64,000 bases of DNA, taken from contig CACGER010000003.1 in assembly GCA_902572075.1 (NCBI GenBank), positions 1-64,000 of the forward strand. The letters are read 5' to 3'. This document shows, one piece after another, positions 33,199 to 43,805 of this stretch. Source of the DNA: an uncultured Prochlorococcus sp. Its GTDB lineage: Bacteria > Cyanobacteriota > Cyanobacteriia > PCC-6307 > Cyanobiaceae. The notes under the pieces were generated by a model. That model did not search any database. It worked only from the letters and a program-made list of their open reading frames with translations, and was not told the DNA's origin. Both the position numbers and the translations under genes were made by a program. Each line of letters begins with the position of its first letter. Position 1 is the first letter of the stretch.

Positions 33199-33283
33199 GG
33201 AGAGGTGGCTGAGTGGTCGAAAGCGAACGACTCGAAATCGTTTAATAGGTAACTATTCGTGGGTTCGAATCCCACCCTCTCCG
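33199..33283 (+). tRNA. tRNA-Ser (anticodon CGA)
   Basis: GGAGAGGTGGCTGAGTGGTCGAAAGCGAACGACTCGAAATCGTTTAATAGGTAACTATTCGTGGGTTCGAATCCCACCCTCTCCG; class II variable arm; anticodon stem AACGA-CTCGAAA-TCGTT. Confidence 0.96.
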
Positions 33284-33430
33284 TAATACACCAATTTTGC
33301 ATGCAGACTTATGGTGTTATAAGATCTCCAATTAGACTGCAATTACAGGATAGTTGAGAAAAATACTTATGGTCAGATAACTTTTTGATTTTGAAATATA
33401 AGGTATTTCTAGGGAAAATATGGGTAATAA

Positions 33431-33593
33431 ATAAGTGGTACATGTTTTATTTCCATGGGGTATGAAAAGCACCCATGGGGTACATAAAAATACCAGTGCG
33501 ATTTCAGCAATTTAGGAGATAGTTCAAGTGACACCTTCTTATGATGGGGGACAAGAAATTTTGATGTGGTACAGAATATTTTGATGGGGTTTA
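33431..33593 (+). repeat. cluster of imperfect direct repeats, about 20-bp period, core ATGKGGTACA
   Basis: 33431 ATAAGTGGTACA; 33453 CCATGGGGTATG; 33473 CCATGGGGTACA; 33542 TGATGGGGGACA; 33562 TGATGTGGTACA; 33582 TGATGGGGTTTA; spacing 20 bp within 33453/33473 and 33542/33562/33582. Confidence 0.7.
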
Positions 33594-33597
33594 TTGG

Positions 33598-33626
33598 TTG
33601 ACAGTTGATCTAAAATTTAGAATATA
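33598..33626 (+). promoter_or_regulatory. candidate sigma70-type promoter
   Basis: TTGACA (33598-33603), 17 bp, AATATA (33621-33626); abuts the last 20-bp repeat. Confidence 0.4.
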
Positions 33627-33720
33627 CATCTATTTTATATGGTTTATTTAGGTGATATTTAGAGAACGCGAGAATGATATAGACTTTCAGTTACATCAAA
33701 TTTCAAAATTTTTTTCGGAC

Positions 33721-34665
33721 ATGAAAAAACTTGTATACCTTTTTCTCATATTGATGTGTTTTACCAGTGGTAATTCATACTCATGGGAAAAGGTACCTGT
33801 TCCAGACTCTGTAGATAAAAAAACAAAATCCCCTTGGAATTTCTTTGAGGACTTTGAAAATGAAAATGTAGGAAGATTGACAACCAATAAATTTACGACT
33901 AACGATAAGGGTACAGGTCTCAAACCATTTGAAATTAAAGAAGACCCTGATGGTAATACCTATCTTGCAGTGACAGTAAAAGATGGATGGAATGTTGATC
34001 AGAAAGGGTGGACAAAGGAAACAACTGAAAGAGCAGAATTTGAGGTCAAACCCAAAAGAGTATTAGGTAAAGAAATATGGATCAGTTTCAAAAAGAGACT
34101 TCCAGAGGATTTTACTCATATCGACGACAGAGTATTATTTTTTCAATTCAAAAATATGATATCAACAGGAAAAGTCAGTCCTCTGATAGGATTACGTTAT
34201 AAAAAAAATGGAAATAGATTAAAAATAGGAGGACAGACCGGAGGAAATGCACGTCGATCTATGAGTCAAAAGGAAAAGGACCTTTATCGTATTGATACAA
34301 AGTATAAAAACTATGAAGGAAATTGGGTTCAAAGATGGGAAAAGTTCAGAAGTCAATATAAAGACAGAGATGTTGATGGTACAGCAAAAGTGACTCCATT
34401 AGGGGAATGGAGTACATATAAGATTGGAATCTATAATACAAGAGATAACGATGGTTTTGTCAGAGTCTATAAGGATGGGGAATTGATATTTGATTATAAT
34501 GGTGTCACTTATGATTGGCGTGGAAAGTATTATCAAAGTCATATCAGACTTGGTGTCTATCGAGATCGAGTAGTTGGAGTGAGTTACCCCGACCAAACGA
34601 TTCACTTTGATGATTTCATTGTTGTTTCAGATGAAAAGACTTTAGATCAGATACTCGCCAAATAG
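33721..34665 (+). CDS. secreted polysaccharide-lyase-like protein (heparin lyase I / PL-type beta-jelly roll)
   Basis: ORF track starts at GTG 33652; ATG at 33721 gives a signal peptide MKKLVYLFLILMCFTSGNSYS; TTERAEFEVKPKRVLGKEIWISFKKRLPEDF, SHIRLGVYRDRVVGVSYPDQTIHFDDFIVV. Confidence 0.7.
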   Translation: MKKLVYLFLILMCFTSGNSYSWEKVPVPDSVDKKTKSPWNFFEDFENENVGRLTTNKFTTNDKGTGLKPFEIKEDPDGNTYLAVTVKDGWNVDQKGWTKETTERAEFEVKPKRVLGKEIWISFKKRLPEDFTHIDDRVLFFQFKNMISTGKVSPLIGLRYKKNGNRLKIGGQTGGNARRSMSQKEKDLYRIDTKYKNYEGNWVQRWEKFRSQYKDRDVDGTAKVTPLGEWSTYKIGIYNTRDNDGFVRVYKDGELIFDYNGVTYDWRGKYYQSHIRLGVYRDRVVGVSYPDQTIHFDDFIVVSDEKTLDQILAK

Positions 34666-35064
34666 TCTGCGATCTTTTGATGAGCAGGTTCAAGTGGGTG
34701 TTTCTCGGTCGTGTTGATAAAGTGTTTTATTGCAGTTCTAATCATGATTTCTCAGATAGAAATGTTTATATTTTTTGATTGATTTCTTATCTTTACTGTC
34801 GGAAAGTAATAGATTATTCTTTTTATAAAGAACTTGAAAATAGTCAGACTTAGATTCCAATATAGTAGCATACAAACTCAGTTATATCAAAGAACTGAGG
34901 GAATTTAGAGTATTATTTTAGCGTTCCCTAACACCTAAAAAAGTGTTATTTTTGGGGGAATACAAAATAACATTTTCCGATTTGGTGTTGTAGAAAATGG
35001 AGTCTTTTTCAGCAGTTTGATCTTTTATTTCTAAGATTACTGATGAATACTGGGGTCAATTCTG

Positions 35065-35087
35065 AGTTCAGATTACACCCTTTCCGT
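35065..35087 (+). repeat. degenerate copy of tRNA-Ser 3' end (putative att remnant)
   Basis: AGTTCAGATTACACCCTTTCCGT aligns ungapped with 33262-33284 GGTTCGAATCCCACCCTCTCCGT at 17/23 positions. Confidence 0.4.
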
Positions 35088-35198
35088 TTTAATAGGATAA
35101 TTAGGAATCTTAATTTTTTGATTTTTTATTCAAATTGCAGTGATAAATAAGAGTTCTAAGAAATATCAATTTATGTATAGTTGGTTTTAATTTTATGT

Positions 35199-35274
35199 GT
35201 GTTGGTGGATGTGTTGGTGGATATTTTTAATGTGTTGGTGGGTATGTTTTTGACAAGGTTTGGTGTTGGTAGAT
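35199..35274 (+). repeat. 12-bp GTGTTGGTGGAT repeats (two tandem, two dispersed)
   Basis: 35199-35210 and 35211-35222 identical; 35232-35243 GTGTTGGTGGGT; 35263-35274 GTGTTGGTAGAT. Confidence 0.75.
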
Positions 35275-35339
35275 TCCTCAAGATCACTTGTTATTAAATG
35301 AGTTTTTCAGATTCTTCTGGAGGAAAGAAGGTATCACCT

Positions 35340-35798: not shown

Positions 35799-35881
35799 TA
35801 TCGTTTGAATAAGAAATAGTATGTTTTACCTTATAAGTATAGTTTTTCTAACAAAAAGTATTAATAAAAGTGAAATAAACA

Positions 35882-41362: not shown

Positions 41363-42745
41363 TTAATCTAAATCAGGCATTTCTAGAGCTGGTTCACTCT
41401 TTCTGTCGATTCCTTTTTCGAAACCAGCAGCGGCTGCTCTAGCACGTCCAGCATGCCAAAGGTGACCGATGAATGTAAACCATCCTAGGAAGAATTGAGC
41501 TGCAGCTAACCACTGTCTTAAGTTAACGAAGTTAACAGCATTAGGCTCTGTAATGATTCCACCAACAGAGTTGATAGAAGCGTTAGGAGCATGAGTCATA
41601 TATTCAGCAGCTCTTCTTACCTGCCAAGGCTGAATATCATTCTGGATTTTCTCAAGGCTCAAACCGTTAGGTCCTCTTAAAGGCTCTAACCATGGACCTC
41701 TGAAATCCCAAAATCTCATTGTTTCGCCACCAAATATAATTTCACCAGTAGGAGATCTCATGAGATACTTACCTAGACCTGTTGGTCCCATTGTTGAACC
41801 TACGTTAGCTCCAATTCTTTGATCTCTCACTAGGAAAGTAAAGCTTTGAGCCTGTGAAGCTTCAGCATTTGTTGGACCATAAAATTCTGAAGGGTAAGCA
41901 GTGTTGTTAAACCAAATGAATGTTGAAGCAATAAAACTTGCTACACAAATTCCACCAAGAGCGTAACTTAATAGTCCTTCACCATTCCAGATAAAAGCTC
42001 TTCTTGCCCATCCAAAAGGTTTGGTAAAGATATGGAATATTCCTCCAATGATTGCAGTAATACCCACGTAAACATGTCCACCAACAATATCTTCGATGGA
42101 GTTAACACCGATTATTGAACCAGCTCCTCCCCATGGAGATCTGAATAAATAACCAAGAATAACTCTCGGATCCAAGGTTGGGTTTACAAGTCTGACTTCA
42201 CCACCACCTGGTGCCCATGTGTCATATGCACCGCCAATAAAACACCAGTTTACTGACCATGCTAGTGCACCTACACCTAAAACAATCAAATGATATCCGA
42301 GGATATTTGTCATTTGATTTTTATCTCTCCAATCGGTTGAGAAAAATGGAAAATCTTCTTCAAGTTTTTCTGGACCTGCTAATGAATGGTAAATACCACC
42401 AAAACCAAGTACAGCGGAAGCTATCAAATGAACCACGCCTGCTTGGAAGAAAGGCATGATATCAGTAACTTCACCACCTGGGCCTATCCCATAGCCAAAC
42501 ATTGCAACGTGTGGCATACAGATTAAACCTTGCTCCCACATTGGTTTATCAAAAGTAAAATGATTAACCTCAAAGAGCATCATTGCTCCCGCCCAAAAGA
42601 CTATTAGTCCAGAGTGAGCAATGTGAGCTCCTAATAAACGTCCAGATAAATTGATTAATCTAGCGTTACCTACATACCAGGCATAACCAGTTTCCTCAAT
42701 ACTTTGGTTTGGAGCTCTTAATAAATTATTAAAGGGCGTTTCCAC
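41363..42745 (-). CDS. psbC: photosystem II CP43 protein
   Basis: GTG start at 42745 ([14 protein letters not shown]) preceded by GAGGAGG; overlaps psbD 3' end by 17 bp; ORF track ATG at 42772 is also in frame. Confidence 0.96.
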
Positions 42746-43805
42746 GTGGAAGAACCTCCTCAGGGAATACAAAGTTTTCGTGTGGTTGATCCACAGAAGA
42801 CATCCATGCTCGCATACCTTCGTTCAAAAGTATATTTTTTGTATAGAAAGTTTCAAATTCTGGATCTTCTGCTGCACGGATTTCTTGGCTTACGAAATCA
42901 TAAGCTCTTAAGTTTAGTGCTAGGCCGACAATACCAATTGAAGATGTCCACATACCCATAACAGGTACAAATAGCATCAAGAAATGTAAGAAACGCTTGT
43001 TTGAGAAAGCAATACCGAAGATTTGACTCCAAAATCTATTCGCTGTAATCATTGAATAAGTTTCTTCTTCTTGAGTTGGGTCAAAAGCTCTAAATGTTGA
43101 ACTTTGAACCTTACCATCTGTATAAATACTTGTATCTTCGTACAAAGTATTTTGTACTGTAGCTCCATGAATAGCGCAAAGTAGAGCACCACCAAGAATT
43201 CCAGCAACACCCATCATGTGAAATGGATTTAAAGTAATATTATGAAAACCTTGAATGAACAGAATGTAACGGAAGATTGCTGCAACACCGAATGAAGGTG
43301 CGAAGAACCAACTATGCTGTCCTAAAGGATAAATAAGGAAAATACTTGTAAATACTGCAATTACTGCTGAGAATGCTAAAGCGTTGTATGGTCTAATTCC
43401 AACAAGGCCAGCAATTTCAAACTGACGAAGCATAAAACCAATTAGGCCAAATACTCCATGTAATGCAACGAAGTTCCAAAGTCCACCAAGCTGTAGCCAT
43501 CTTACGAAACTACCTTGGGCTTCAGGACCCCATAAAAATAGAAGACTGTGTCCCATGGCATCACCAGGGGTACTTACAGCTGCTGTTAAAAAGTTACAAC
43601 CTTCAAGGTATGAGCTTGCAACTCCATGTGTGTACCATGAGGTAACAAATGTTGTTCCGACGAACCAACCACCTATAGCAAGATATGCACAAGGAAGTAA
43701 AAGTAGTCCGGACCAACCAATAAATACAAAGCGGTCGCGCTTCAACCAATCATCAAGGACATCAAACCATCCTCTTTGTGGGGCGCTACCAACTGCGATC
43801 GTCAT
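42729..43805 (-). CDS. psbD: photosystem II D2 protein
   Basis: [41 protein letters not shown]. Confidence 0.98.

Follow-up and report, generated by a model that had tools for sequence, protein, structure and literature searches.

Six imperfect copies of a 10-bp word, ATGKGGTACA, stand between a tRNA-Ser(CGA) gene and a polysaccharide lyase gene in the window, the 64,000-nucleotide stretch of an uncultured Prochlorococcus sp. analysed here. We interpret the array as putative arm-type sites for an integrase, located at attL, the tRNA-side end of a small mobile element that has integrated here, a reading to which we give a probability of about 85%. It is proposed because the number, size and reach of the words resemble those of the ICEMlSymR7A attP, and because of a comparison with other elements. 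The array is independent of the cargo that follows it (the lyase, two other cargoes or no gene), which counts for the same reading.

The repeat array downstream of tRNA-Ser(CGA)

With up to two mismatches, the word ATGGGGTACA (ATGKGGTACA) is found at 33433, 33455, 33475, 33544, 33564 and 33584, and three pairs of copies (33455/33475, 33544/33564 and 33564/33584) are exactly 20 bp apart. These features, and all those of the insertion given below, are on the + strand. As a control, 1000 dinucleotide-preserving shuffles of 33284-33720 were generated, in which any 10-mer was scored for copies and for 20-bp pairs. The best 10-mer reached a maximum of five copies (mean 3.2) and a maximum of one 20-bp pair, and none of the 1000 shuffles matched the array, which rules out a chance origin. 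Among 146 real 437-bp segments across the window, the array segment alone attains six copies and three pairs. The 20-bp phased array described in the initial annotation is thus borne out, being absent from same-composition shuffles and from the rest of the window, and the expected conservation of its words in orthologous flanks was also found, since the array is kept in the tRNA-Ser flanks of relatives.

The copies are distributed in two half-arrays. The first one, the tRNA-side arm (33420..33484), contains the words at 33433, 33455 and 33475 and a weak extra copy at 33420, ATGGGTAATA, where relatives have ATGGGTAACA. Including this copy, its words lie at +137, +150, +172 and +192 from the core, close to the spacing in the other elements with which the layout was compared. 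The second half-array (33544..33593) contains the words at 33544, 33564 and 33584, spaced 20 bp. In G321 (L084), a clean loss of about 40 bp between repeat copies has removed the equivalents of the words at 33544 and 33564.

A precise 1.8-kb insertion

The tRNA-Ser(CGA) gene (33199..33283, ARAGORN and Rfam) is the integration target and is intact after integration. Its 3' end plus one base forms the attL core CACCCTCTCCGT (33273..33284, sequence comparison), which is repeated with one change as the attR core CACCCTTTCCGT at 35076..35087; in relatives, the two 12-mers are identical. The uninterrupted site is found in G264 (L020), where the tRNA-Ser is joined to TTTTAATAGGATAATTAGGA without the insert and where the flank is 92% identical over 250 bp to the window from 35087 on. 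Because the tRNA 3' end is duplicated and the G264 junction is uninterrupted, 33285..35087 is a precise insertion of 1803 bp, delimited by the core repeat and this junction. No integrase ORF is present in the ORF list of 33285-35087, in which the lyase is the only gene of note. The genome of the window, which is 70% complete, gives one Phage_integrase match, on a different contig.

At the far end, the position of an arm pair (34985..35010, about -91 and -79 from the attR core) could be assigned from G319 and G373, in which ATGTGGTACA at -91 and ATGGGGTTAT at -79 are clear; the window copies are decayed. Direct words therefore lie near both insert ends, the left ones in the window and the right ones in G319 and G373. 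About 114-180 bp past attR, a second and different arm array made of TGTGTTGGTGGA copies (35197..35275) constitutes the left arm of the following accreted element, which in G264 sits directly at the tRNA.

Two side observations concern DNA further downstream. Another decayed junction to the ancestral flank is possible near 35830. Rfam also reports IsrR at 42148-42331 (150.7 bits), antisense to a psbC-like (CP43) gene at 41363-42772 on the minus strand; this match may just mirror homology, because IsrR is antisense to isiA, a relative of psbC.

A fixed layout in tRNA-borne elements of Prochlorococcus

About half of 27 other tRNA-Ser(CGA) 3' flanks have at least three copies of some 10-mer, nearly all of which start at about +105 to +195, and the upstream flanks of the same 27 loci are without such repeats. 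Full elements with an integrase were then compared (three from G323 and one each from G444, G409, G441, G341, G384, G403 and G443). In these integrase-bearing elements, all direct words share one orientation; they lie between about +112 and +193 relative to the tRNA-side core, and two usually lie near -92 and -80 relative to the far core. Complete elements with a P4-type integrase were found at tRNA-Ser(GCT), tRNA-Ser(TGA), tRNA-Ser(CGA) and tRNA-Asn; their first word starts at about +110 to +146, the second copy usually follows 11-12 bp on, and more come after (the words of the G444 element are AGGGGATGAA). In 11 of 14 elements, the right arm contains the left-end word again with at most one mismatch; the corresponding figures are 4 of 182 for word swaps and 41 of 2800 for shuffles. 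In this fixed layout, three to four direct copies stand 105-195 bp inward of the tRNA-side core and two more about 92 and 80 bp ahead of the far core, and it is common to elements whose word sequences differ. The layout offers a means to recognise Prochlorococcus mobile units without mobility genes, which gene-based searches would overlook.

This layout also bears on the proposal that the array is an iteron-like origin for replication or excision of a small mobile element. Direct repeats at a spacing of about two helical turns inside a mobile element would suit iterons of an excised circle. Of this proposal, the mobile element stands, and the repeats are best assigned to excision and integration. 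The replication part does not stand, given that the ORF list of 33285-35087 contains no replication initiator gene and that, in many elements, the words keep fixed distances from both recombination cores, which replication would not need and an iteron origin leaves unexplained. It was therefore rejected as very improbable.

Relatives with the same left end

Twelve genomes, that of the window among them, have the stretch that runs from the tRNA core to the end of the array. It lies upstream of the lyase in six of them (the window, G424, G373, G319, G466 and G321) and upstream of other genes in G420, which has five clear words of the six-word arrangement, and in G332. A second core closes the left end in four genomes, perfect and about 257 bp after the first in G399, G522 and G429, near-perfect and at about 260 bp in G347; the resulting units contain no gene. 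Past the second core, the flanks of these four genomes are all different, and the one in G399 adjoins the tRNA directly in G067, G259 and G282.

At the aligned place, where G399, G522 and G429 have the intact CACCCTCTCCGT, the window has CACCTTCTTATG (33532..33543, matching the core at 7 of 12 positions) and G420 has CACCCTCTTCTA; both are probable decayed cores. The weaker GTGACA match formerly placed at 33522 is actually at 33528, and in the 20-bp register it agrees with the word at 4 of 10 positions, so that it is better taken as the edge of the decayed core CACCTTCTTATG. From these alignments, the array would, somewhat more probably than otherwise, join two element ends in tandem, namely that of a 257-bp unit (33420-33484) and that of the lyase unit (33544-33593), with the decayed core near 33532 between them.

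A variant of the arm-site reading, to which we give appreciable but lesser weight, is that the six words constitute one long left arm in which 33532 is a pseudo-core, the 257-bp units having arisen by internal deletion and not by movement of their own. The six-word arrangement is indeed common to several genomes with different cargoes, and the second half-array, which starts about 12 bp past the presumed inner core versus at least +105 in other elements, is too near that core for a standard arm. This short distance also counts against the arm-site reading itself. Against the single long arm, a core that is intact or nearly so occupies the aligned position in four genomes, and the flank behind it differs from one genome to the next.

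As a separate observation, at least two tRNA-Ser cores 97-475 bp apart are present in L085 (G347), G191 (L022/L220), L215 and L225. These closely spaced cores correspond to apparently gene-less tandem units with differing word families.

The lyase cargo and its candidate promoter

The cargo gene (33721..34665, start taken at 33721) encodes a polysaccharide lyase (PF14099, E 7e-16), predicted to be secreted from its hydrophobic N-terminus, typical of a signal peptide. Its closest relatives are in Prochlorococcus single-cell genomes, and it was absent among the viral contigs searched. The lyase lies between two matching cores in 13 genomes including that of the window. At tRNA-Ser(GCT) there are six such units, each about 1.4 kb long, and G152 has one of about 1.5 kb at tRNA-Asn. 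The remaining six units measure 1.7-1.8 kb and have a tRNA-Ser(CGA) core; four of them are directly at the tRNA. The words of the cassette vary with the site, being AGGGGATAAA at tRNA-Ser(GCT) and ATGTGTTTT at tRNA-Asn. One gene is thus found at three tRNA genes with three sets of integrase words.

The TTGACA (33598-33603) and AATATA (33621-33626) boxes noted previously are both present in the sequence, 17 bp apart, and form a candidate lyase promoter (TTGACA-N17-AATATA, 33598..33626) located in the cargo module; the consensus promoter scan did not list this pair. In G152, the lyase retains the TTGACA promoter region and the DNA upstream of TTGACA is wholly different. Since the similarity between G152 and the window starts exactly at TTGACA (33598), the promoter region is part of the cargo, and the words are part of the element end.

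This boundary is relevant to the suggestion in the initial annotation that a cooperatively binding regulator occupies the array. In such an operator, the regulator bound to the phased words would govern the lyase promoter at TTGACA 33598; the helical phasing, the position of the last word, which ends 4 bp upstream of TTGACA, and the 94-97% conservation of the array beside the lyase in G424, G373 and G319 are in keeping with it. It is nevertheless improbable and was rejected as the main function, since the array occurs irrespective of the cargo: the same left end is followed by unrelated genes in G420 and G332 and by no gene in G399, G522, G429 and G347. Moreover, the lyase at tRNA-Asn and at tRNA-Ser(GCT) has wholly different upstream words, and in relatives the words recur near the far core. 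Autoregulation by an integrase at attL is known for KplE1 and, by analogy, an integrase bound to the arm-type sites may exert a secondary repression on the nearby lyase promoter.

Outside the genus, relatives of the lyase with 49-61% identity were observed at varied places in Pelagibacteraceae single-cell genomes (L242-L247), where no tRNA was found within 3 kb on either side. From these similarities, a lyase exchange between SAR11 and Prochlorococcus is possible.

Comparison with known systems

In complex tyrosine integrases, one part of the protein binds the core and the N-terminal domain binds distant arm-type sites; arm binding by a DUF4102 domain is characteristic of the SXT/P4 subgroup (PMC8138268). 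The closest comparison is with the attP of ICEMlSymR7A, which spans 283 bp and in which efficient integration requires every one of the five arm-type motifs, TGKTGGTATC (PMC11963761). There, five experimentally defined 10-bp motifs surround the core used by IntS of Mesorhizobium, and the standard Prochlorococcus layout is similar, with two words on one side, at least three on the other and a length of about 290 bp. ICEMlSymR7A is conjugative and has its own integrase, whereas the window unit is 1.8 kb long with one gene and no integrase, and it has six words about 20 bp apart on one side.

Integron gene cassettes are single-gene mobile units which are moved by an integrase encoded elsewhere and recombine at attC sites. 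The unit of the window resembles them in carrying a single gene and in its presumed reliance on an integrase encoded elsewhere, but units of this type lie at tRNA genes and have arm-type words, not attC sites.

Hackl et al. reportedly described the tycheposons of Prochlorococcus in 2023. Like the window unit, these are tRNA-borne integrative elements with cargo genes, and a later paper (PMC10872708) gives them a size of 4-200 kb, cargo and a tyrosine recombinase. The window unit, with its 1.8 kb and no recombinase, falls outside the size and the recombinase content given in that later paper and for this reason was not classed as a tycheposon; it may be a non-autonomous derivative of one.

In prophages of the KplE1/HK620 type (IntS, TorI), the attL is linked to a tRNA and its arm-type sites lie by a promoter just inside the element (PMC2951348). 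The window has the same arrangement of tRNA-linked attL and putative arm-type sites adjoining a promoter inside the element, but the promoter is the integrase's own in these prophages and would be that of the cargo lyase in the window.

Search for the integrase and proposed mechanism

In the proposed mechanism, a tyrosine integrase of the P4/SXT type, supplied from elsewhere by another element or a helper, would act on the cassette. Its N-terminal arm domain would bind the words and its other domains the core; with words about 20 bp (two turns) apart, the N-terminal domains would be bound on one face of the DNA. The integrase would then fold attL and attR (or attP) into an intasome, by which the cassette would be integrated at, or excised from, the tRNA gene.

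An element with an integrase and ATGKGGTACA words was not found in 266 genomes of the genus. The 20-bp spaced word pattern gave the known loci and two single matches elsewhere in these genomes, the 12-bp spaced pattern gave no match in them, and the word pattern gave none in IMG/VR. This failure to find the cognate integrase counts against the arm-site reading, as do the decayed far-end words of the window and its inner core at 7 of 12. In ten integrases, N-terminal similarity and word similarity were not significantly correlated (Mantel p 0.14), so that the link between words and integrase rests on layout and not on covariation. In G466, an integrase adjoining the left end matches Phage_integrase and Arm-DNA-bind_3 weakly, below the cutoff, and its unit contains just one similar word, ATGTGGTGGA, at about -80, which is a lead only.

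More tentatively, Prochlorococcus tRNA genes might host a cassette system composed of units with one gene (1.4-1.8 kb) and even of units without any (about 257 bp), served by integrases in trans. Cargo would be re-packaged between ends with different words and tRNA targets, and the word would act as the address label of an integrase. With one lyase at three tRNA genes and three word sets, it becomes a testable idea that units are mobilised in trans in a phototroph abundant in the ocean.

Finally, a tyrosine-recombinase-like protein of about 389 residues was observed in most of the 19 genomes searched (G000:C7:27898-28314 and equivalents). This conserved protein could act in trans.
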